Source: Acidobacteriota bacterium (GTDB lineage: Bacteria > Actinomycetota > Acidimicrobiia > Acidimicrobiales > Microtrichaceae). From it: a stretch of DNA of 35,331 nucleotides. A program made the position numbers and the translations under genes. The notes under the pieces are model-generated. The model did not search any database and was not told the origin of the DNA. It worked only from the letters and a program-made list of their open reading frames with translations. The stretch covers positions 1 to 35,331 of the forward strand of contig QEUP01000031.1 in the NCBI GenBank assembly GCA_003577145.1. Direction: 5' to 3'. Shown one piece after another: positions 2,577-22,858 of the stretch; the first letter of the stretch is position 1; every line of letters begins with the position of its first letter.

Positions 2577-4663
2577 CAGCGGACCCCCAGGATCGCCTGG
2601 GCGCGCTCGAGCACGTCGATGACGTCCACGCCGTGGTAGACGAACTCGTCGACCCCGGCAACCTCGTAACGGCCTGCCGCGTCGCCGGGCCGCCCGCTCA
2701 GGTACAGGCGCTCGGCACCGGCGGCCTTCAGGGCGGGGGCCACCTCCTCGACGAGCTCCTCGTAGACGGGATCGGCCGAGCAGAGCACCGCCAGGCGCGC
2801 ACCGCTGGCGCCGAAGGCCTCGGCGCAGTCGCCGGCTCCCTTGCAGCCTTCGTGACCCAGCACCTCGATGCCGCCGACCTCGAAGAGGTTCTTGGCGAAG
2901 GTCGCACGGGCGGTGTGATCGGCGGCGCTGCCCAGGTTGGCGAGGAACACCGCCGGCCGCTTGCCCTCCGCTCGCAGGAACTCGTCGCTTGCGTCCCGCA
3001 GCTCCTCGAAGGGATCCGCCAGCCGGGCGAAGGGCACCGGGTCGATGGTCGTCGCTTCACCGCTCGTGGCCGAGGCGATCTGCTCGACGGTTGCGCCGCG
3101 GGCAGCCACCGCGAAGACCTCGTCGACCACCTGCGCGGCGCTCGCAGCGTCGGGGAGGAAGACCTCGACGGCGCTCGTGGTCTGCGCTGCCCGCCGGCGC
3201 AGCGACGCGAGATCGGGGACGGTCCGGTTCACAGGCTCCTCGGCGAGGTTGGGGAACTCCGAGACGCCGGTGATCCGGTCACGCCTGGTTGCCAGGTGCG
3301 CCGAGCGCTCCGCCCGGGTACGGGCCAACTGCGCCCCGACGGTGCCGCGACACAGCGCTTGCACCATGCCTCCGGCTGCCTCGACATCCTGGAAGCGCCG
3401 CCACGCCTGCTGCACCAACTCCTCGGTGAGTTCCTCGACGAACCACGAGCCGCCGGCCGGGTCGATCACCCGCCCCACGTTCGACTCCTCCTGCAGGATG
3501 AGCTGGGTGTTGGCTGCGATTCGCCGAGCGAAGCCGTTGGGGAGGCCGATCGCAGCATCGAAGGGTGCGACGGTGATCGAATCGGCGCCACCGAGGGCCG
3601 CCGAGAAGCAGGTGACGGTGCTGCGCAGCATGTTGACCCAGGGATCGCGCCTGGTCATGACCCTCGCCGAAGTGGACACGTGAAGCTTCATGCCCTGCCC
3701 GTCAGCCGTTGCCCCGCTTGCCTCCATCACGTGAGCCCAGACGCAGCGGGCGGCACGGAGCTTGGCGATCCCCAGGAAGAAGTCGCAGTCGGAAGTGAGG
3801 GCGAACTCGATCTGCCCCGCGGCATCGTCGATCGACAACCCCGCGGCTACGAGGCGGCGCAGGTACTCGACCCCGGTGGCGACACCGAAGGCGATCTCTT
3901 GTGCCTCGGCCGCCCCGCCATCGGCATAGGGGGCGGTGTCCACAGCCATCGCGGTGACGTTCGGGTGGGCCTGGGCCACGCGCGCCGCCAAGGCGGCAGC
4001 GCGATCGAGAGCATCCTCCAGTCCCACCGGGAGGGTCCCGTCTGTGGCGAGCGTGCCGAGTGGGTCGGCCCGGAACGCCCCCCGCGCCTCACCGGGGGGC
4101 ACGCCTCGGCGGGCCCACAAGTCGCTGAGCATGCCCGCCGCAGCGACGAACTGGGGCCCGGCGTCGACGGCGACCGCCACCGCAGCCAGGTCCACGCCGG
4201 CGAGGACGGCGTCGAGATCGTCGACGGTGCTCACCAGCGTCCCTTCGACTCCCGAGAGCCGCCGGCCCGCGGTGGTCGCCGGGCCCACACCGCCACGGAA
4301 CCCCCCGTCGAGATGGAGCAGCACCGCGGTGACACCTCGCCGGAGGTCCCGGGTGATGGCATGGTTGGCGGCTGCGGGATCAGGGTCGCGGTAGGCCTGG
4401 CGGATCTCCCAGACTCCGCTCGGCCTTGCTTCGCGGCGGGTTCCCCTGCTGAACGGGAAGGCCCCCGGGAACCCGGCCGGGTCGACGAGCCCGCCCGCCT
4501 CGCTCCTCGTGTACAGCGGCTCGAGGGTGATCCCGTCGTAGGTGGTCGACTCCAGGGTCTCGAACGGAGCGCCCCGGAGGACCTTGGCGACGAGATCGAG
4601 CCAGTCCTGTCGCGACGGCTGGGGGAACCCGCTCGCCAGGGTCAGCTCATCTTCGATCTCCAC
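2576..4663 (-). CDS. mutA: Methylmalonyl-CoA mutase small (structural) subunit
   Basis: This 695-residue homologue of MutB forms the non-catalytic subunit of the heterodimer. It retains the barrel domain ([15 protein letters not shown] and [12 protein letters not shown] are recognisable family segments) and a C-terminal flavodoxin-like domain. That domain lacks the cobalamin-binding DxHxxG: the corresponding stretch reads [15 protein letters not shown]. This loss is typical for MutA, so the protein should not bind B12. The gene is immediately upstream of mutB with a one-base overlap and starts 70 bp after the MFS gene on the same strand, so the three genes may share a transcript. The ATG at 4663 begins MEIEDELTL, a normal family N-terminus. 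Confidence 0.95.
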
Positions 4664-4733
4664 GAACCCTCCACTGGCTCGTCCTGCCGGTCGGTTGACG
4701 ACCGCTCCGGCGGCAGCGCGAGGCTACCGCGGA

Positions 4734-6491
4734 TCACGATCGCTGCTCGATGGGAACGGACCGAGCAGCTCGTGCCAGTCTGTGCCCGAACACCAGGCCG
4801 ATCAACACGAGCAGCGCCGACACCGCGAACACGAGCCGCGTGCTCCAGACGTAGGCGCCCTCGATATCCACGGCTCCGTGCTCGAGCGCCGGGTCACTGG
4901 CGACGTCGTCGATGGTCGTACCGTCGTCGCGGCCCGAGCTGGTGCTACCCGCGGGAGCGTTGGCGGTCGAGTGGAGGAGGCCGACGATCTCCTGGCGATC
5001 AGAGGGGTGCAGCTCGGCCAGTGCGTCGATCTCGCTGGTGGCTCGGGGGACGGCCGTCCCGAGAAGGAGCGCGCTCAAGACGGCCCCGCCCAGGCAGATC
5101 GCACCTACCCGGACGGTGAGAAGCGTCCCGGAGGCGACACCGCCGAGTTCCTCGGGTACGGCATCCATGGCCACGTCGGTGATCTTGGCGAAGCTCATGC
5201 CGAAACCGGCTCCCGTGATGAACAGCGGCACGGGCAGCGCCCATCTCACCACCGCCGGGTCCATCGCGAGCGCACCGAGCAGCAACCCGGCGACGATCAC
5301 GACCATCCCGGCGTTGACCACCCAGACGTTGTCGTGGCGTTGAGCCAAAGGAGTGGCCACGAGGCCGAAGATGGCCACCGCGAGGCCGAAGGGCAACAGC
5401 ATCAGGCCGGTCTGGAGGGGGTCGAGCTTCAAGGCGATCCCGGTGAAGATCGGCACGACCAGCGTCATCGCGAACGGTCCGAAGATGAAGAAGAACGCCA
5501 CGATGTTGCTGAGCCGGAAGACCGGTCGCTTCCAGAGATCGATCCGGATCAGCACGCTCAGGCCCTTGCGGTACCGTGCGCGCTCCTCGAGGGCGAAGGC
5601 GACGAGGCTCACGACGGCCACTGCCATGAGCACAGGTGTGATCGAAACGGCCCCGCTCGGCCAGTCGACACCGGCAAAGGCCAACTGCCGCGTCGGTTTC
5701 CACCAGCCGTAGTCACCTCCGAGTTGGAGCAGCATCAGCAAGGCCCCCAGCCCCACGGCGAACAGGATGGTGCCGGACACGGCCAGCCCGTGGCCCCCCT
5801 CGCTGCGGCGGGTGCCCGGCAGGTACTTGAAGCCCAGCGGCAGGCACAAGGCGGTGACGCCCACAGGGATGAGGAAGGCGAGCCTCCAACTCCCGTACCT
5901 CACGACGAGGCCGCCGAACAGCGGTGCGATACCGGTGGCGCCTCCGAGGACCGCGGCATAGCAACCGAAGGCGATGGACCGGTCGCGTCCCCCGGTGAAG
6001 ACGGCGTTGAGCAGGGCGACCCCGGCGGTCGCGATGGCAGCCATGGCAGCGCCGAGCAGGGCGCGCCCGGCGAAGAACGTCACCGCGTCGGGACCCAACC
6101 CACTGAGGAGTCCGCTGAGCAGGTACAGGCCCGACGCCCACAAGAAGAGGCGCCGACGCCCGAAGCGATCGGCGGCGTCACCGGCGAGTATCAACAAGAC
6201 CGCGGTGAACATCCAGACGAGAGCCACCGAGATGTTCACCGACGTGATGCCGAACCCCAGGTCCTTCACCAGTGCCGGACCCAGTACCGCAGTCACCTCG
6301 GCGTCGAGGACGACCATCAACAGGACGGCCAGCACTATCCCGAGAACAGCCCAACGATGATCCCCGGGGACAGCCGCAGCCCCGGTCCCCGGGTCTGCGG
6401 TTCGCACCTCGTCGGCGGGAGCTTCTGACACCCTGGATGGAGTCGGCACCCCGGACCGAATCCTGAGAAAGGGATGCGATCCGGCTCGCAC
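4734..6491 (-). CDS. MFS drug/proton antiporter, DHA2 (EmrB/QacA) type
   Basis: This 585-residue inner-membrane transporter probably has 14 transmembrane segments. Motif A appears as GDAADRFGRRRLF at 103-115, after TM2, and an antiporter-type motif C follows in the GGATGIAPLFGG region of TM5. Asp63 lies within TM1 (VLLMVVLDAEVTAVL). Substrates of this group are usually amphipathic drugs, dyes or fatty-acyl compounds; none can be named here. A loop of about 60 residues before the last helix is polar (DDGTTIDDVASDPALEHG). The start used is GTG with no clear ribosome-binding site, so the first 40 polar residues may be shortened by an internal start. It is divergent from the lipoprotein gene at 6616 and 70 bp upstream of mutA. 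Confidence 0.88.
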   Translation of the reverse strand: MRAGSHPFLRIRSGVPTPSRVSEAPADEVRTADPGTGAAAVPGDHRWAVLGIVLAVLLMVVLDAEVTAVLGPALVKDLGFGITSVNISVALVWMFTAVLLILAGDAADRFGRRRLFLWASGLYLLSGLLSGLGPDAVTFFAGRALLGAAMAAIATAGVALLNAVFTGGRDRSIAFGCYAAVLGGATGIAPLFGGLVVRYGSWRLAFLIPVGVTALCLPLGFKYLPGTRRSEGGHGLAVSGTILFAVGLGALLMLLQLGGDYGWWKPTRQLAFAGVDWPSGAVSITPVLMAVAVVSLVAFALEERARYRKGLSVLIRIDLWKRPVFRLSNIVAFFFIFGPFAMTLVVPIFTGIALKLDPLQTGLMLLPFGLAVAIFGLVATPLAQRHDNVWVVNAGMVVIVAGLLLGALAMDPAVVRWALPVPLFITGAGFGMSFAKITDVAMDAVPEELGGVASGTLLTVRVGAICLGGAVLSALLLGTAVPRATSEIDALAELHPSDRQEIVGLLHSTANAPAGSTSSGRDDGTTIDDVASDPALEHGAVDIEGAYVWSTRLVFAVSALLVLIGLVFGHRLARAARSVPIEQRS

Positions 6492-6615
6492 CGGGCTGAG
6501 GTGGCGGTATTCGGCCCGGGCGAAATTCCTGGATCGGTGTCGGAAACGGCGTCACTTCCTCTACCGTTGTCCCCAACGCGGGCGTAGTGGGGATACCGAG
6601 GGGATACGGGAAGTC

Positions 6616-7611
6616 ATGAACAACGGCTCCCTCCGCTGGGGAGCGCTCGCCGTCACCGTCGCCGTCGCCGCCGCTTGCGGAGGGGGCAACGACGCGACCG
6701 TCGACGCCTCATCAACGGAAGCATCCGCGGCCAGCAGCGCACGCATCGCCGTCCAGCGTCCACAAGTCGAGGGGCTCGAGGACATCGCCCCCTACCTGTA
6801 CGACGAGAACGGCTGCCTCATCGTCATCGGCGCAGAACCGGTGTGCGAACGCGACGGCGGTGAGGACCCGGTTGCCGAGGGGGCCGATCCGGCAACGACG
6901 GAACTGTTCGTCGGCTACTTCGGCCCCCACTACGCGACCACGGTGCCCGCGGCGGCCGCCCGCCAGCAGATGACCGTGCTGGAGGAGACGCTGACTACGG
7001 CCTCCTCGGGGCCCTGGACGGCCAGCGGCATGGTCCGCAACGACTCGCCCGCCGCAGTGTCGGCGATCGCGGTCGAGGCCACGCTGAGCGACGCCGCCGG
7101 GAACGTGCTGGAGGTGGTCAGCGCCGAGGCCGCGGTGCACCATGTACGCCCCGGCGAACCCGCTCCCTTCGTGGTCGACGCCTCGGTGGACGCCGCCGAT
7201 GTCGCGTCGGTGTCCTGGAGGTCCACGCCCCTCGGACCCGGCGACGAGGCAAGGCGACTCGTCGACGTGCGCCCGGTCTCTTGGCTGCTCCCCTACGGGG
7301 AACGCCAACCGGTGTCCCACGCGACGCTGTGGGACGAACCGGTAGGCCCGCCGTTCCCCTACGTCGCCACCGGTTCGGTGGAGAACACGAGCGGCCGGCA
7401 GCTCAGCGGGGTACAGGTGAGCGCCGCGTGGCTCGACGCCGACGGGCGGGTGGTGCACGTCGACACCGTTCCTGCGGTCGACGTGACCAGGCTGGCTGTG
7501 GATCCGCTGCCCGACGGCTTCCCCGCGCAGTTCGTGATCACCTACGACGACCCGCAGCTCGGCCCTGAGCTGTCCGGCAAGACCATCGCCGTCTGGGGGT
7601 TTGCGGCATGA
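6616..7611 (+). CDS. Secreted lipoprotein with two FxLYD-like beta domains
   Basis: This 331-residue protein has a short hydrophobic signal ending in VAAAC, with Cys21 as the probable lipidation site, then a Ser/Thr/Ala-rich spacer. Two segments look like repeated beta-sandwich modules of the FxLYD type: ASGMVRNDSPAAVSAIAVEA (about 137-156) and ATGSVENTSGRQLSGVQVSA (about 254-273). Both have the pattern G-x-V-x-N-x-S followed by V-x-A, an Asp turn and a V-x-x-V strand. It should sit on the outer face of the cytoplasmic membrane. The ATG follows a purine-rich GGGATACGGGAAG. Its TGA overlaps the next gene's ATG (ATGA), so the two are translationally coupled. Function is unknown; FxLYD domains are generally extracellular ligand or partner binders. 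Confidence 0.75.
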   Translation: MNNGSLRWGALAVTVAVAAACGGGNDATVDASSTEASAASSARIAVQRPQVEGLEDIAPYLYDENGCLIVIGAEPVCERDGGEDPVAEGADPATTELFVGYFGPHYATTVPAAAARQQMTVLEETLTTASSGPWTASGMVRNDSPAAVSAIAVEATLSDAAGNVLEVVSAEAAVHHVRPGEPAPFVVDASVDAADVASVSWRSTPLGPGDEARRLVDVRPVSWLLPYGERQPVSHATLWDEPVGPPFPYVATGSVENTSGRQLSGVQVSAAWLDADGRVVHVDTVPAVDVTRLAVDPLPDGFPAQFVITYDDPQLGPELSGKTIAVWGFAA

Positions 7612-8606
7612 GAAGAAGACGCCACCGCAAGATCGCCGCCGTCGCCGCCGGATCGCTGGCCGCCGGTGGACTGACCGCTGCCGCTGCCGGACCGCTCGCC
7701 GGTACCGCCGCGGCACAGACGAACCGCTTCGGCAACGAACCCGTCGCCTCCATGTGGATCATCGCCGCCGGAACGCTGAACCAGCAGGGCGCCTGCTCGG
7801 GCCTGACGCCGACCAAGTTGGCCGCGATGATGATGGCGGTCTCCTGGTCCGAGCTGACCGGCACCAGCTCGATAGCCCCCTCGCCGATGACGCTGTCGCG
7901 GTGGGATTCGGTGGCGGTTCGCCCCGAGAACCAGAACCTCTACTCCTTCGGCACCATCGAGACCGAGCGGCGGGCCCACTGGAACCCGGGTGTCGGGCTC
8001 TTCCAGCTCGACCTGCTCGGGCCCAGCACGTCGATGGCGCATTGGGAGCGCATCTACGTGCCGACCGCCGCGGCGGTGGCCGCCGACTCGATGCGCGACG
8101 GCTACTGTGCCGGCGGCACCGAGGAGCAGCGCCTCGATCGCGCCTGGGCACCCTGGTACGGCTGCGCCGCCAACGACTGCAAGTCCCTCCTCAACTCGGT
8201 CTACGACTACAGCTCCGACCGCTTCAAGAACCTGCAGAAGGACTCGTCCATCACCGCCTACGGCGGCATGGTCCGCAAGTCCTGCTACTACTCGAGTGCG
8301 CCCAGTCCCCAGGTGTTCGACTGCTACTGGGTCCACCCGGCGTACGCCCAGGGCTACACCAACAACTGGGGTGAGCCCTACAAGCCCGAGGGCGGCAGCG
8401 GATCCAGCGCTCCCACGCCGGTGGCAACCGGCTTCTACTCGGCCAACTACGCCGCCCACACGCGGGCCCATTGGCGCTCCGAGGAGACCGGCTACTCCCG
8501 CGACATAGTCAAGTACATCCCCTACGGCACCAACCCCCGCAACCACACCACCTGGTACGGCTCGACTTCGCTGTGCGCCAAGACGATCTTCGGATGGGCA
8601 TGCTGA
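7608..8606 (+). CDS. Secreted cysteine-rich lysozyme/transglycosylase-like protein
   Basis: This 332-residue protein has a basic N-terminus (RRRRHRK), a hydrophobic segment and an Ala-rich cleavage region near residues 33-37, a Sec-type signal. The mature part has a helix with MMMAVSWSELTG (Glu82) followed about 45 residues later by WNPGVGLFQLD (126-135). This order, a helix with Glu and then a G-x-x-Q turn, resembles goose-type lysozyme and soluble lytic transglycosylase folds, where Glu is the catalytic acid. Eight cysteines (63, 167, 186, 191, 226, 239, 323, 332) could form disulfides outside the cell. Peptidoglycan cleavage is inference; sequence similarity is not strong enough for certainty. 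It overlaps both neighbours. Confidence 0.6.
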   Translation: MRRRRHRKIAAVAAGSLAAGGLTAAAAGPLAGTAAAQTNRFGNEPVASMWIIAAGTLNQQGACSGLTPTKLAAMMMAVSWSELTGTSSIAPSPMTLSRWDSVAVRPENQNLYSFGTIETERRAHWNPGVGLFQLDLLGPSTSMAHWERIYVPTAAAVAADSMRDGYCAGGTEEQRLDRAWAPWYGCAANDCKSLLNSVYDYSSDRFKNLQKDSSITAYGGMVRKSCYYSSAPSPQVFDCYWVHPAYAQGYTNNWGEPYKPEGGSGSSAPTPVATGFYSANYAAHTRAHWRSEETGYSRDIVKYIPYGTNPRNHTTWYGSTSLCAKTIFGWAC

Positions 8607-8842
8607 CCCTGCGCTCCCTCGACTCGTTCTCCGCCTGGCTGTCCGAGGGCGAGTCGGTGCTCGTCACCGGCGAGGGCACCGTCGAGGTGGACCCCGTCGG
8701 GGTCGTGGCTGTGGCCGCCATGTGCTCCGAAGCCGGAATGCCGGCATCGTTCGTCGACGAGGCGGGAGTGCACGACCTCAGCGACCTCTTCGAACGCTAC
8801 GTACAGCTAGCGGTGGCGACCGACATGGCGGCGCGACGATGA
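8594..8842 (+). CDS. Small acyl-carrier-protein-like protein lacking the Ser
   Basis: This 82-residue protein (80 if the ATG at 8600 is used) has its start inside the end of the preceding gene in another frame. Residues about 34-75 follow the pattern of helices II-IV of an acyl carrier protein: VDPVGVVAVAAMCSEAG, then PASFVDEAGVHDLSDLFERY. In a true carrier protein the first motif would read D-S-L, with Ser carrying phosphopantetheine; here it is D-P-V. If the comparison holds, this is a carrier-like protein that cannot be charged. A STAS-like fold is an alternative. The next gene is a GNAT acyltransferase overlapping by 4 nt (ATGA), which suggests a functional pair. Confidence 0.55.
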   Translation: MGMLTLRSLDSFSAWLSEGESVLVTGEGTVEVDPVGVVAVAAMCSEAGMPASFVDEAGVHDLSDLFERYVQLAVATDMAARR

Positions 8843-9453
8843 GCGACGGTTACTCCATTCCCCAGCCGCTCACGGAGACCGAACCGCCGGTGCTGGCGGC
8901 ACGCGGGACAAGGCTCCGGCCGGTGACACCGGCGGACTACGACTACCTCTACGGCCTGGCCACCGACGACGAGGTCGGCTTCCGCTGGCGCCATCGTGGC
9001 ACGACGCCCAGCCCCGAGGACTTCAGCCGATCGCTCTGGGAAGGCGTGTTCTCCCAGTTCCTGGTGTGCGATGCCGACACGGGGCGCCCGTTCGGGCTGG
9101 TCGTGGCCTACGGAGCCCACCCGCGGGACGGCTACGCCTACGTCGCGGCAGTCGCAGAGAGCCGGGCACACAGCACCGGGCAGATGGTCGTGGCGTTCGT
9201 GCTGTTCGTCGAGTACCTCTTCGCGGTCGGGAACTTCCGCAAGCTCTACATGGAGACCAACGAGTTCAACCTCGCCCAGTTCGGACGCCATCTCGATCGG
9301 TATGTCGACGTCGAGGGCCGCCTCAGCGAACACGAGTGGTACCGCGACCGCTTCTGGGATGTCCTCATCCTGTCGATCCGACGCGATTCGTGGGACAAGA
9401 GGGCGGGCCGCATCCGCGACTACGTGCTCCGAGGCCTCCGTTCCCAGCCTTGA
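8839..9453 (+). CDS. GNAT-family N-acyltransferase (RimJ/RimL-like)
   Basis: This 204-residue cytosolic protein resembles Acetyltransf_3-type GNAT enzymes: RLRPVTPADYDYLYGLATDD (about 25-44) forms the first strand and helix, then FLVCDADTGRPFGLVVAYG (strands 2-4), a central helix after SRAHSTGQMVVAFVLFVEY, and the closing VEGRLSEHEWYRDRFWDVL typical of this subfamily. The usual R/Q-x-x-G-x-G/A pyrophosphate loop is replaced by SRAHSTGQM, so the acyl donor may not be plain acetyl-CoA. The start is the ATG overlapping the upstream stop (ATGA); a longer in-frame extension back to 8722 would bury most of the upstream small gene. It is the last gene of the overlapping cluster 6616-9453. Confidence 0.8.
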   Translation: MSDGYSIPQPLTETEPPVLAARGTRLRPVTPADYDYLYGLATDDEVGFRWRHRGTTPSPEDFSRSLWEGVFSQFLVCDADTGRPFGLVVAYGAHPRDGYAYVAAVAESRAHSTGQMVVAFVLFVEYLFAVGNFRKLYMETNEFNLAQFGRHLDRYVDVEGRLSEHEWYRDRFWDVLILSIRRDSWDKRAGRIRDYVLRGLRSQP

Positions 9454-9587
9454 TCGGCAGCCGCAGCAGCTAGAACCCGATGGCGCAGCCCGCGCCAGTC
9501 CGGTAGCACGATGCCGGAGCGCGCCGCCGTGGTAGAATCGCGTCACCCTTCCCTCCACAAGATCTCCATTTGCGATCGAGGGAAGAG

Positions 9588-10106
9588 ATGCCGGTAGACG
9601 AAGGGCGACGACACGCCCTCTACACGAAGCTCGAGCAGGTCCTCGGGCACGATCAAGCAGAGACGTTCATGCAGCTCACACCGCCCACCGAATGGGCCGA
9701 ACTGGCAACCCACCAGGACTTCGAACATCTCGACACCAGCCTCGGCGCTCGTATCGACGGGCTGGAAGCCCGAATGGACAGGCTGGAAGCCCACGTCGAG
9801 AACATACGGCTAGGCCTGGAATCCCGCATTGACGGCGTGCAGGCAGCACTGGAATCCCACGTCGAGAACGTACGGGTAGGCCTGGAATCCCGCATCGACG
9901 GCGTGCAGGCAGCACTGGAATCCCGCATCGAGAACGTACGGGTAGGCCTGGAATCCCGCATCGACGGTCTCGAAGCCGACCAGCGGACCCGTGAAGCCCG
10001 CCTCATAGGCGAGCTACACCGGCTGCTGCGCCTCCAGACCATCTGGCTCATTGGCTCGATCTTCACCCTCGCCGCCCTCGTCCTCACCGCCGCCAAGCTC
10101 TTCTGA
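9588..10106 (+). CDS. Coiled-coil protein with C-terminal membrane anchor
   Basis: This 172-residue protein has an N-terminal helical region (ALYTKLEQVLGHDQAETFM, then LTPPTEWAELATHQDFEHL) resembling a small, widespread actinobacterial family of uncharacterised coiled-coil proteins. A long coiled coil (about 50-140) follows, then one C-terminal transmembrane helix (TIWLIGSIFTLAALVLTAA). The coiled coil is built of 11-residue units such as LESRIDGVQAA and LESHVENVRVG, hendecad periodicity, and its DNA is a near-perfect tandem repeat. The ATG at 9588 is preferred because GAGGGAAGAG precedes it at a good distance; an in-frame start 18 nt upstream has none. Function is unknown, perhaps a membrane-tethered scaffold. 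Confidence 0.78.
   Translation: MPVDEGRRHALYTKLEQVLGHDQAETFMQLTPPTEWAELATHQDFEHLDTSLGARIDGLEARMDRLEAHVENIRLGLESRIDGVQAALESHVENVRVGLESRIDGVQAALESRIENVRVGLESRIDGLEADQRTREARLIGELHRLLRLQTIWLIGSIFTLAALVLTAAKLF
9811..9966 (+). repeat. 66-bp tandem repeat inside the coiled-coil gene
   Basis: Copies begin TAGGCCTGGAATCCCGCAT at 9811, 9877 and 9943, giving an exact 66-bp period. Two full units differ at a few bases and the third is partial. Each unit encodes 22 residues, two hendecads. Identity at silent positions indicates recent duplication, so copy number may vary between strains. Confidence 0.9.
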
Positions 10107-10219: not shown

Positions 10220-12181
10220 TCAGATGGGCTGACAGCCCAGACCGGCGTCGGAACCTCCACCGGTTCGGTTCAGCGCGTAGACGCACACCGTGTGAGCGCC
10301 CACCGGCAGGTTGGTGATCGCACCCGAGTAACCGTGGTACCCGCCGTAACCGGGGAAGACCGCCGCCAGATCCGCGCGGTAGTCGTCGGCCACGACATCG
10401 GTGAGGGTGTGGCCGCTGCTGCCGTACACGTAGACGTGGAGATGGACAGGCTGGGTGGTGTCGGTGTCGATCGCCCACACGTCGAGGGTCACAGAGCCCC
10501 CCTGCCGGTGTGCCCCGGCGAAGTTGCCGCCGGTCAGCGATCCGAACGACCAGACGTACTGGCAGCCGATCGGGGGGTTCCCCGTGCCGTATCCATGGTT
10601 GATCCCGTATGCGCACACGAGTTGCACACCGGGTTTGACGCCGTCGAGCTGGTAGCTGAAGCCGCGGTAGTTGCCCAGGCCGTAGACAGACCCGACGTCG
10701 GGGCGGTAGCCGTTGGCGGTCACCCCCTCGAGGACATGGGTGCCGTCGGTCTGCCATACGTAGGTGTGGATGACGGAGCTGGTCTCGTCATCGGGGTCGA
10801 TCACCCATCCCCGTACGTGTATGGCGTTGCCCGGCAGGTCGTAGGCGTAGTCGAGGTGGCCGAAGGGGTTGCCCAGGTAGTCGAAGTGCGAGCGGGCGAG
10901 GCTGCGGATCGACGGCAGGTCGTTGTAGAGGTACTGGCCCGGACATGCCGTGGCCTGGGCCTGGCGGTGCCCGATGATGGTGTTCACGGTGTGGTGGCCA
11001 CCCACGTAGTCGGTGAAGTTGACCGTGGTGTTCGGCACCACGTCGTGGATGCGCAGCTTCCAGCCGAGCAGCTGGCTGACGGCGCTCACTGAGTTCCAGC
11101 TGGGGTCGACGGTGTCGAAGTTGCCCAGCACCACCACCCCGGTCGTGCCGGTGTTCCAGTTGGTGGTGTGCCCACCCACGACGGCCTTGTCGATCCCGCC
11201 GCCCCGGGCCTCCCAGATCCCTCCGCAGAGGTCGACGGCGAAGTTGTAGGCGATGTCGTTCCAGCCGTTGCCGTCCATGTGGTAGTTCTGGATCGAGCGG
11301 AGGATCGACGGGACCTCGGAGCAGCCGTAGGAGTTGGAGGTCACCGAGTGGTGGACGATTCCGAGCTTGACGTTGCTGGCGTACGAGTAGGCGTACTTGG
11401 ACGGCCTCGCTCCCCACGACGACCTCGAGCGGATGTTGGGCTGCCCGTAGGTGGCGGCGCCGGCTTCGGTCTCCTCGATCTCCACCTCCAGCGAGTTGCC
11501 CGTCTCACGGACCAGTAAGACGTCGACCTGCTCCGCCGGGGCGGCCTCTGCGGGGACGTTCACCTCGTAGCCGTCGGCCTCACGGACCCACATCGGCATC
11601 GAGGTGAGCCGGCCGGCGCTCGCCTCCGGCCCGGGGTCGGGCCCCTCGAAGGGCTCGATCTGCAGCTCGCGCCACGGCTCCCAGCCCCCGGGCCCGTGCA
11701 CCCTGACCAGCACCGGCTCGTCGGGAACAGCATCGACCGCCACCCCGATCGTGGTGAACGGCGCCGTCTCGTCACTGCCTCCTTCGAGGCGACCCGGCTG
11801 CTCGCTGAGCGCTTCCTCGAGGGCCCCGGCTGCGGTGTGGCCGGCGTCGTCGACCGCCCCGGCATCGGGGACCGGGGTCCCTGGGTCGCTGCTCACCTCC
11901 CCGGAGGTATCGGCGCCCTGAGCGGCACTGTCGTCCTCGGCGTCCCCCTCCGGCGCGGTGCCCTCCGGTACCTGGGCAGACGCCGCTGGTTCGGCCAACT
12001 CGACGGGTCCGAGGCGGACCGACTCAGTGTCGGTCCGCAACTCGGGCACCAGCTCCACCGACACCTGCGGCACAAAGGCGAGAACCGAGCCGATCAGCAA
12101 CACCGCCAGAACCTGAGCTGTGCGGCGGTGGGTTCTGCCGTTACCCGACCCACCGGCGTGTTCGGAGTCCAATCGGACCAC
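10220..12181 (-). CDS. Secreted N-acetylmuramoyl-L-alanine amidase, PGRP type
   Basis: This 653-residue protein cuts the amide bond between muramic acid and the stem peptide. A signal anchor (VLAVLLIGSVLAFVPQV, about 24-40) is followed by an acidic Pro/Ala-rich region, a beta domain (about 140-235) and the PGRP/Amidase_2 domain (250-430). Zinc ligands are His277 (GIVHHSVT), His405 and Cys413 (GHRQAQATACPG), with the same 8-residue spacing as in T7 lysozyme. Two C-terminal repeats follow (about 440-540 and 552-650), each with GWVID or VWAID, a Pro/Asp turn and a Cys pair (523/540 and 633/650). The GTG start lies directly against GGGAGG, too close for translation; a TTG at 12172 has better spacing and may be the true start. 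It is divergent from the subtilisin gene. Confidence 0.92.
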   Translation of the reverse strand: MVRLDSEHAGGSGNGRTHRRTAQVLAVLLIGSVLAFVPQVSVELVPELRTDTESVRLGPVELAEPAASAQVPEGTAPEGDAEDDSAAQGADTSGEVSSDPGTPVPDAGAVDDAGHTAAGALEEALSEQPGRLEGGSDETAPFTTIGVAVDAVPDEPVLVRVHGPGGWEPWRELQIEPFEGPDPGPEASAGRLTSMPMWVREADGYEVNVPAEAAPAEQVDVLLVRETGNSLEVEIEETEAGAATYGQPNIRSRSSWGARPSKYAYSYASNVKLGIVHHSVTSNSYGCSEVPSILRSIQNYHMDGNGWNDIAYNFAVDLCGGIWEARGGGIDKAVVGGHTTNWNTGTTGVVVLGNFDTVDPSWNSVSAVSQLLGWKLRIHDVVPNTTVNFTDYVGGHHTVNTIIGHRQAQATACPGQYLYNDLPSIRSLARSHFDYLGNPFGHLDYAYDLPGNAIHVRGWVIDPDDETSSVIHTYVWQTDGTHVLEGVTANGYRPDVGSVYGLGNYRGFSYQLDGVKPGVQLVCAYGINHGYGTGNPPIGCQYVWSFGSLTGGNFAGAHRQGGSVTLDVWAIDTDTTQPVHLHVYVYGSSGHTLTDVVADDYRADLAAVFPGYGGYHGYSGAITNLPVGAHTVCVYALNRTGGGSDAGLGCQPI

Positions 12182-21072: not shown

Positions 21073-22707
21073 TCACCTCACCTGAGCTGGGTGCGACTCC
21101 AGCACGAAGGCGGCGAGCTGCGGGTAGAGGAGCTCGTCTTCGGGCCGGAGCGGGTCCGCTGCGCCCTTGCCGAGGCCGTCGAGGATCGCCTGGCGGTCAC
21201 CCGGGTCGATCTCCTCGAAGAGCAGGCGATGGGCGAAGCGGTCGACGAGATCGCCGACGGTCTCCATCGGCTCGTCGCCGATGACTGCCGAGAAGTCGGG
21301 GGTGATCGCCCCAACCGATCCGCTGCTGATCATCTGGGCGGCGTTCCAGCGGGTGAGCACCGCACCCGCGTTCATCCAGGCGCCACCGACATCGGGGAAA
21401 CCGGTGGGTGGGGACCAGGAGAAGAGCGGCTGACCCAGCAGCTCCATGCCGGTCGTCACGTCACGTGCCAACCCCTCGCCCTGGGTCGGATCGACCTGGA
21501 CCTGCAGGGCGCGCATCATGGCCGGCACCAGATCGGCGGGGCGCCTGACCTTCGCTCCCATCGAGTCCCAGAACTCCTCGCTGTCGAACAGGTGCTCGAG
21601 CACGGGCACGATGGCGGTGTCGTTGTCCGAGTAGACGCTCGCCGTGCTCTGCACCACATCGTCACCGGGGCCGACCTGGTCGCCGATGAACCGCACCGCG
21701 AGCTTCCAGCAGATCCGTTCGGCGGTCTGGGGCAGCCGAGCCAGGTGCTCGAGGAAGGCGATGCCGTCACCCATGCCCTCGCCCGACGGGCGCCAGCCGA
21801 GGATGTCGCCCCCGGCCGACAGCGATTCGCCGAGGTCGTGGCGGTCGGGCCGGAAGACGAACTGACCACTTCGCCTGTCCACCGACCAGCCGCTGAGCAC
21901 GTGGGCGGCTTCGGCGACGTCCTGCTCGTCGTAGCCCCCGTCCACGCCGACGGTGTGGAGCTCCATGACCTCCCGGGCATAGTTCTCGTTGGGGACATGC
22001 TCACCGTCGGCACGGCTGGTGGCGTTATCGAGGTAGGTCAGCATCGCCGGGCTCTGGGCCGAGGCCAACAGCAGATCGGCGAAGCGCCCCATGGCATTGG
22101 GTCGTATCACCAGCCGGTCATCCGTCGGCTTCAGGTAGAACTCGGGCTGGTCCCGGAGGTAGATGTTGAAGTGGTTCGTCCAGAAGTCGACCATCACCTC
22201 GTAGAGCTGCCGCACGCTGTAGGTGGCCCGCAGCACCGCGGCGGTCGTCAGCTCGGCCACGATGTAACGGCGAGCCTCACCGTAGGTGGCCCGCAGCTCG
22301 GCAGGGTCCATGGTGAGGGTGGCGAAGCCCGCGATCAGCGCTTCCGTCTCGGCGTCGTCGAGGGAGAAGGGGTCGAGTTGCTCTGCTATGAATGCCTGCA
22401 CGCCGATGCTCTCGACGTGTTCGACGAGCTCGGGCGTGGGTCCGCTGGTGAGCCGCTTGACCACGTGCAGGACATCGCCGGGCGGCAGCCCCCCACCCCC
22501 GGGGATGGTCGTGCTCGTGGTGGACGACGTGGTGGTGGACGACGTGGTGGTGGACGACGTGGTGGTGGACGACGTCGAGGTGGATGACGTGGTGGTGGAT
22601 GACGTCGAGGTGGATGACGTGGTGGACCCGCCGCCGGGGTCGGGCGGGCCGCACGAGGCGGCTACAGCAGCGGCTCCGGCTCCGATCAGAAAGGCGCGAC
22701 GATCCAC
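21073..22707 (-). CDS. DUF1800 protein, Tat lipoprotein with Ser/Thr linker
   Basis: This 544-residue DUF1800 protein begins MDRRAFLIGAGAAAVAASCG, a twin-arginine signal ending in a lipobox with Cys19, so it is probably a membrane-anchored lipoprotein. Residues about 28-69 are almost only Ser and Thr in 5-residue repeats, a flexible and possibly glycosylated stalk encoded by a minisatellite. The DUF1800 body includes VDFWTNHFNIYL, PNENYAREVMELHTVG and AHVLSGWSV, well-conserved family segments. The start is GTG after AGGAGCTGAGG. It is cotranscribed with the DUF1501 gene; together they form a common exported pair of unknown activity. Confidence 0.9.
   Translation of the reverse strand: MDRRAFLIGAGAAAVAASCGPPDPGGGSTTSSTSTSSTTTSSTSTSSTTTSSTTTSSTTTSSTTSTTIPGGGGLPPGDVLHVVKRLTSGPTPELVEHVESIGVQAFIAEQLDPFSLDDAETEALIAGFATLTMDPAELRATYGEARRYIVAELTTAAVLRATYSVRQLYEVMVDFWTNHFNIYLRDQPEFYLKPTDDRLVIRPNAMGRFADLLLASAQSPAMLTYLDNATSRADGEHVPNENYAREVMELHTVGVDGGYDEQDVAEAAHVLSGWSVDRRSGQFVFRPDRHDLGESLSAGGDILGWRPSGEGMGDGIAFLEHLARLPQTAERICWKLAVRFIGDQVGPGDDVVQSTASVYSDNDTAIVPVLEHLFDSEEFWDSMGAKVRRPADLVPAMMRALQVQVDPTQGEGLARDVTTGMELLGQPLFSWSPPTGFPDVGGAWMNAGAVLTRWNAAQMISSGSVGAITPDFSAVIGDEPMETVGDLVDRFAHRLLFEEIDPGDRQAILDGLGKGAADPLRPEDELLYPQLAAFVLESHPAQVR
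22511..22626 (-). repeat. 15-bp minisatellite encoding the Ser/Thr stalk
   Basis: On the plus strand the unit GTGGTGGTGGACGAC and variants (with TCGAGGTGGAT) repeat with a 15-bp period across roughly 115 bp. On the coding minus strand each unit gives five Ser/Thr residues (SSTTT or SSTST). Such a tract can change length by slippage without breaking the frame. Confidence 0.85.
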
Positions 22708-22858
22708 CCTCAGCTCCTGACTAGCTCCCCGGTCCAGCTCCCTGGGCGAGTCCTCGGTACCGTTATCGGACCGGATTGTCAGCTCAGCGTGGTCGAGGTG
22801 TTAGGGAAGGGTTAGCCCGCATCGGCCGAGCTCACAGTCGTCGCGGCGCGATCAAGCG

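Follow-up and report, generated by a model that had tools for sequence, protein, structure and literature searches.

The 35,331-nucleotide stretch analysed here (the window) is the entire contig QEUP01000031.1, C68 of a 4.05 Mb genome, and carries on its plus strand a cluster of four overlapping genes, encoding a lipoprotein, a lysozyme-like exported protein, a small carrier-like protein and a GNAT. All together, our data indicate that this cluster is made of two units, an old pair of exported proteins (unit A) and an acyl carrier protein (ACP)–GNAT pair (unit B), and is not a single conserved system. The four open reading frames (ORFs) were confirmed as follows:

6616..7611, plus strand: gene 1, P0001, 331 amino acids, lipoprotein with lipobox Cys21 and FxLYD modules; unit A
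7608..8606, plus strand: gene 2, P0002, 332 amino acids, exported, with a lysozyme-like N-domain (about residues 37-210) and a beta C-domain containing Cys; unit A
8594..8842, plus strand: gene 3, P0003, 82 amino acids, ACP-like, without the phosphopantetheine serine; unit B
8839..9453, plus strand: gene 4, P0004, 204 amino acids, GNAT with an altered donor loop; unit B

The successive junctions overlap by 4, 13 and 4 nucleotides, in agreement with the original prediction, made from the sequence before this analysis, that every junction in the cluster overlaps. Overlapping genes are common in GC-rich genomes, and for this reason the overlap by itself is weak evidence; the junction between genes 1 and 2 is also overlapping in two homologous loci (L002 and L003). 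Long minus-strand ORFs also run across the site; since homologues exist for proteins 1, 2 and 4 on the plus strand, these ORFs were dismissed as noise of GC-rich DNA. The cluster is more than a chance assembly, as genes 1 and 2 recur as a pair and the family of genes 3 and 4 has a non-random neighbourhood.

Specifically, P0001 matched the NCBIfam FxLYD model NF038353 over two stretches, with 57.5 bits against a cut-off of 23, and reached 26.2 bits with DUF3426, under the cut-off of 27.7. When P0001 was aligned with its homologues from L002 and L003, Cys21 was invariant in the three rows; the L003 homologue scored 31.8 bits with the FxLYD model and the L002 homologue 22.5 bits, slightly under the cut-off. 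The description of gene 1 as a Cys21 lipoprotein with FxLYD-like modules is therefore borne out.

No Pfam or NCBIfam family matched P0002, and a sequence search for solved relatives returned only chance matches to antibodies. The P0002 family has matches in 42 of the 397 genomes of the order and includes 65 named loci, Saccharopolyspora, Nakamurella, Nocardiopsis and Chengkuizengella being represented among them. In a 28-row family alignment, Glu82 is conserved in at least 90% of the rows, and in the GVGLFQLD motif at 128-135 the residues G128, G130, Q133 and D135 are invariant; both elements had been pointed out in advance, and both are found and conserved. The same alignment contains a conserved SPMTLSRWD segment.

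An AlphaFold2 model of P0002, built with 28 family rows, had a predicted local distance difference test score (pLDDT) of 82.8 and a predicted template modelling score of 0.81. For residues 37-210, 23 of the 24 best VIA matches were lysozyme-type by their titles (Z 6.7 to 4.0), and comprised muramidases, MltC, MltE, a GH23-type chitinase, GH124, goose-type lysozyme and Slt35; the 24th was a phage protein of uncharacterised function, and no clearly unrelated match appeared above a Z of 3.6. In the model Glu82, a candidate catalytic residue, is where helix 68-83 ends. Foldseek gave no match with this model at E <= 0.001. The structure prediction thus agrees at the level of the model, and with middling VIA Z scores, with the lysozyme-like fold proposed for the protein, here in its N-domain, and P0002 is likely a lysozyme-like glycan enzyme.

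A P0001 homologue is encoded directly upstream of the P0002 homologue in L002 and L003, and a P0001 profile match was found just upstream at 8 of the 65 named P0002-family loci. This synteny marks genes 1 and 2 as a long-standing pair that encodes exported proteins. The pair of lipoprotein and lysozyme-like protein extends to Chengkuizengella axinellae (L259 and other named P0002-family loci), a species outside Actinomycetota. In addition, the longer P0002 homologues of L002, L003 and L004 have long C-terminal extensions with repeats, which are absent in the window copy; judged by their motifs, these repeats look FG-GAP-like (L002, L004) and SLH-like (L003).

The flanks fetched around the named P0002-family loci extended for at most 6 kb, less where a contig ended, and a GNAT of the P0004 family was present in 0 of 65. 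The original prediction had regarded the four genes as one system; this neighbourhood check speaks against it, and the idea is further weakened by the relatives of genes 3 and 4, which elsewhere lie behind unrelated exported proteins. A conserved four-gene system was therefore rejected. As the two units are independent in the flanks, the window is a place where the old exported pair came to lie ahead of an ACP–GNAT module. The system had also been linked to cell-wall remodelling. This link suits the window copy, given the lysozyme-like model of P0002, and surface-polysaccharide-type neighbours (nucleotidyltransferases, epimerase, flippases) were seen by eye at 10 of 29 P0002-family loci, with many others lacking them. 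It does not hold for the GNAT family: genes 3 and 4 are not beside P0002 homologues elsewhere, the partners of their relatives are mostly not wall enzymes, and we consider it very improbable that all four genes form one wall-remodelling system. The acyl modification that the original prediction tied to the cell wall may nevertheless apply without that link.

As for unit B, P0004 matched the Pfam GNAT family PF13302 with 30.7 bits (cut-off 25.4). Its donor loop reads RAHSTGQM, many relatives having GxG; among the 34 relatives whose carrier has the serine, 22 show a GxG/A loop, which P0004 lacks. Gene 4 had been called a GNAT with an altered donor loop, and so it is. The family, followed with alignments A1 and A5, occurs at five places in the window's own genome, and matches at E <= 1e-20 were obtained in 44 of the 397 order genomes. 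In a phylum sample of 296 genomes, 17 had matches; 11 of these genomes lie outside the class, and among the 11 only G804 and G697 were strong.

By profile, the closest solved relatives of P0004 are spermidine N-acetyltransferases (70.3 bits). This would be compatible with an ACP–GNAT pair that makes an acylated small molecule, such as an amino-acid lipid, a polyamine or a sugar derivative, with the exported proteins binding it, processing it or responding to it, and ACP-dependent N-acyl amino acid synthases do exist. We regard such a product as quite unlikely, since the exported partners of the family, described below, are unrelated enzymes and fit one shared pathway poorly.

P0003 has no Pfam match. 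It stands where family relatives have carrier domains and, by alignment, has DPV in place of the DSL serine of carrier proteins. A sequence search in 61 genomes gave P0003 itself as the only strong match, the others having E >= 0.005. Many members of the GNAT family are fused to or adjoin an acyl carrier domain, in either order; NCBIfam carrier models match the GNAT fusions L078 and L091, and PF00550 was matched by 16 of 17 serine-bearing carrier segments. This GNAT family is therefore repeatedly associated with an ACP domain. PF00550 was matched by none of the 11 serine-less carriers, P0003 included (two had lone weak matches to other families), and their assignment to a Pfam family was rejected on this basis. 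A serine-less profile (A8) aligned with a serine-bearing one (A7) in hhalign at 95.3% over the last 25 columns, and P0003 alone gave no hhalign alignment with the serine-bearing profile. The best VIA matches of the P0003 model (pLDDT 74.6) were mostly ACPs, with Z 5.3 and below; the model is supportive only, because true ACPs were in its input alignment, and it gave no Foldseek match at E <= 0.001. For the ACP-like character ascribed to gene 3, the position of the gene speaks in favour and the model may do so; the DSL serine and a Pfam match are missing.

Carriers across the family were listed by eye as serine-bearing (35) or serine-less (11), leaving aside L159 with its two carriers, the ambiguous L099 and all places where no carrier was visible; gaps removed L104 and L098 from the count of loops, which left 34 and 10. 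Serine-less carriers thus occur in at least 11 places, including the window. The donor loop is without GxG at 7 of the 10 serine-less places with an alignable loop versus 12 of the 34 serine-bearing ones (p 0.07), a suggestive difference only, and a coupled loss of carrier serine and donor loop is not claimed. Both features would be expected if window-like copies were non-catalytic; the serine-less carrier and the loop-altered GNAT would then assist the exported enzyme as a chaperone in the cytosol, as an adaptor for its export or as a factor of self-protection. The remainder of the GNAT domain is, however, conserved in the serine-less copies, and the GNAT-fold RtxC enzymes are still active without coenzyme A (CoA) elements (PMC8339906); a non-catalytic role is in our judgement unlikely.

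A distinct arrangement was observed at L159 (G386:C36, oriented 3724-4897), where one GNAT lies between two ORFs, of which the upstream one is carrier-like and serine-less and the downstream one encodes a carrier with the serine. Such an arrangement would fit a serine-less carrier that acts in docking.

We then come to the genes behind which the GNATs lie. The first upstream gene was exported at 33 of 74 GNAT family places and at 0 of 20 control GNATs (Fisher p 9.7e-5); restricted to places with a nearby same-strand gene, the figures are 33 of 49 and 0 of 8. Among the other genes in the control loci, 11 of 85 were exported by score. The 74 places derive from 80 loci chosen by search score plus the window (81), from which three loci of tandem-GNAT type (L094, L096, L103), the generic L111 and three more with short upstream sequence were dropped; if the four named loci are counted as negatives the result becomes 33 of 78. 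The count still includes L177, L180 and L181, which are also of tandem-GNAT type. Weaker search rows (about 42 to 64 bits) supplied the 20 controls, which were picked by hand. Gene and signal-peptide calls were made by heuristic scripts, which missed some genes, for example exported ones at L072 and L179.

Of the five GNAT places in the genome to which the window belongs, four (C68, C6, C27 and C54) have the GNAT behind a lipoprotein and an exported protein, and the fifth (C58) has it behind a non-exported protein. The C6 partner is DNase-I-like (24.6 bits to PF03372, cut-off 24.5), as is the C27 partner, which is 54% identical to the C6 copy and has no Pfam match; the C54 partner is metzincin-type, with the motif HEWGHVFGLGH and Pfam matches under cut-off, and there the exported gene comes first. 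At L104 (G000:C54, oriented 4005-4670) the carrier part, with its DSL serine, and the GNAT part are in different frames, indicating a broken gene or an assembly error.

The partners found in other genomes include a peptidase A4 protein (L161, 73.3 bits), trypsin-like or alpha-lytic-type proteins (L178, L079, L075 and L106, by sub-threshold matches or by eye), metzincin-type proteins with the full motif (L166, L235) or an altered one (L099, L107), an NlpC/P60-like protein by eye (L098) and an I36-type protein (L156). Pfam searches with 30 upstream proteins, that is, partners and a few cytosolic ones, mostly gave no match, and an all-against-all BLAST divided the exported partners into small unrelated groups. 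Outside the window's class, G697 (L235) combines a metzincin-type protein, a lipoprotein, a GNAT and a serine-bearing carrier. Whole cassettes also recur, with the following identities between the exported genes: L072/L073/L165, 27-54%; L102/L166, 43-49%; L083/L179, 54% and 39%; L088/L148, of the same genus, 46-54%; L153/L161, 33%; and in addition L091/L105.

At L107 (G014:C169, oriented 6205-7284), a gene for a cytosolic cupin/JmjC-type protein (PF07883, 32.6 bits; PF08007, 29.1 bits) was found between the metzincin-type exported gene and the serine-less carrier–GNAT gene. Since it lies within the cassette, this cassette may hold a second modifying enzyme.

The variety of partners, together with the absence of genes 3 and 4 from the P0002-family flanks, could also mean that mobile or fast-moving GNATs settled by chance behind genes for exported proteins, with no functional link. 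The difference between family and control GNATs in their first upstream gene and the recurrence of whole cassettes across families argue against chance settlement, which we hold to be improbable.

The best reading of these data is, in our opinion, that the ACP–GNAT pair is a movable module which modifies its co-encoded exported proteins or serves them in another way, a reading drawn from gene neighbourhood. A GNAT and a carrier that are cytosolic and encoded last, behind exported proteins, would most simply modify those proteins before export. From the families, gene order, recurrence and missing serine that were observed, we infer an acyl transfer, its target and its purpose: the GNAT of this two-unit locus would, while its target is still in the cytosol and ahead of Sec export, place an acyl group on the exported partner or on the lipoprotein, a proposal that we make tentatively and with somewhat less than even confidence. 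The acyl groups would be drawn from a carrier domain, either the module's own or a housekeeping one, in a mode like that of the RTX/CdiC acyltransferases but acting on Sec-exported enzymes, and acylation could serve surface anchoring or activation. Because the window carrier is not loadable through the usual serine, the most that P0003 would do is to serve as a docking site for the GNAT, for the substrate of the GNAT or for another carrier. A wider proposal is that Acidimicrobial and some other actinobacterial genomes use exchangeable ACP–GNAT cassettes for fatty-acylating or otherwise tailoring Sec-exported enzymes and lipoproteins before export, as a general lipid-tagging outside RTX proteins and ribosomally synthesised and post-translationally modified peptides (RiPPs), with a sub-branch, including the window, in which a serine-less pseudo-carrier is a docking subunit; in this extended form it is possible but doubtful.

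Several observations weigh against pre-export acylation. In the window itself, a carrier without the phosphopantetheine serine and without a Pfam match, and a GNAT without the donor-loop glycines, both count against simple acyl loading, and no carrier was seen at the own-genome places C6 and C27. The first gene was not scored as exported at 41 of the 74 places, which include ones with no same-strand gene called, with distant genes or with non-exported genes, some of them being misses of the caller (C6/L072, L179). Where a nearby upstream gene is present, 16 of 49 places did not fit, or were not needed, in the automated count. Several places, for example L078, L081, L086 and L087, have an intact carrier yet no exported first gene scored, and a GNAT subgroup (L150, L151, L164) lies behind a non-exported, by eye SnoaL-like protein, which looks like a real case and not a miss of the caller. 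Furthermore, the GNAT family places cannot be treated as independent, inspection by eye of the exported partners of the own-genome and some other loci revealed no acceptor motif in common, and acylation is at all these loci deduced from neighbourhood.

Three further ORFs of the window were recorded. Directly 3' of the cluster, 9570-10106 (plus strand) encodes a coiled-coil protein with internal repeats LESRIDGVQAALES/HVENVRVG. The exported protein encoded at 10220-12181 (minus strand) resembles by eye a peptidoglycan-recognition/amidase protein, although searches of Pfam and NCBIfam at E <= 1 returned nothing for it. A low-complexity ORF with VVVDDV-type repeats at 22505-22720 (plus strand), called by the gene-finding script, is probably not a gene.

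Searches of the full-text literature, which left most subscription papers outside their reach, returned no description of an ACP–GNAT module behind exported proteins. Should chemistry lie behind the neighbourhood, very different exported enzymes would be modified by one reusable means in a bacterial class that has been little studied, one GNAT family could predict which secreted proteins are modified, and serine-less carrier domains would gain a testable role. If instead the pair is catalytically dead, a recurrent acyltransferase–carrier pair would have been turned into partner proteins of secreted enzymes. Either outcome would give a function to many genes left unnamed by the family libraries used here (Pfam, NCBIfam), and the two-unit neighbourhood hints at an undescribed tailoring of secreted proteins.

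By comparing the two units with known systems, P0002 appears close to the fold of GH23/soluble lytic transglycosylases and goose-type lysozymes, with which residues 37-210 of its model align, and its conserved Glu at a helix end, followed by G-x-G-x-x-Q, may be a further feature in common. It differs from the GH23/goose-type enzymes in having no sequence-family match, in its conserved SPMTLSRWD segment and beta C-domain, and in the extra repeats carried by several relatives. P0004 belongs to the same family, PF13302, as the SpeG and RimJ-RimL GNATs, its closest solved structures by profile. GNATs of that type are not known to have a carrier domain, whereas the P0004 family often has one and lies in a different neighbourhood. 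N-acyl amino acid synthases of the FeeM/FeeL type, with their dedicated ACP, combine a GNAT-type fold with a carrier protein as unit B does, but P0004 has no Pfam match to that synthase family.

The nearest parallels for the proposed mode of action are enzymes that acylate a protein. HlyC-type enzymes modify a partner protein with acyl-ACP, ApxIC is GNAT-like and without CoA-binding elements, the RtxC enzymes are likewise GNAT-like, acyl-ACP-dependent and without CoA elements (PMC8339906), and CdiC acylates the effector encoded beside it (PMC8510554). The likeness therefore lies in a GNAT-like fold without the usual CoA elements, an acyl-ACP donor and a co-encoded exported substrate (PMC8339906, PMC8510554). 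The partners here differ in having Sec-type signals, the carrier domain is encoded within the cassette, and the Pfam and NCBIfam scans of P0001 and P0002 gave no RTX or CdiA families. P0004 matches only PF13302 and not the RTX acyltransferase family, PF02794. GNATs encoded in RiPP clusters also acylate gene-encoded peptides, as in selidamides, lipolanthines and nostolysamides, and one of them, NpuN, used acyl-CoA (PMC13060382). The partners here are whole exported enzymes and lipoproteins, and no lantibiotic-type or RiPP maturase was found among the eight proteins scanned around the site with Pfam and NCBIfam, short ORFs not being screened for leader peptides. In conclusion, set beside these systems, the arrangement would be a dedicated acyltransferase next to its exported substrate, in a form that the searched literature did not describe and with a function proposed from the genes around it.

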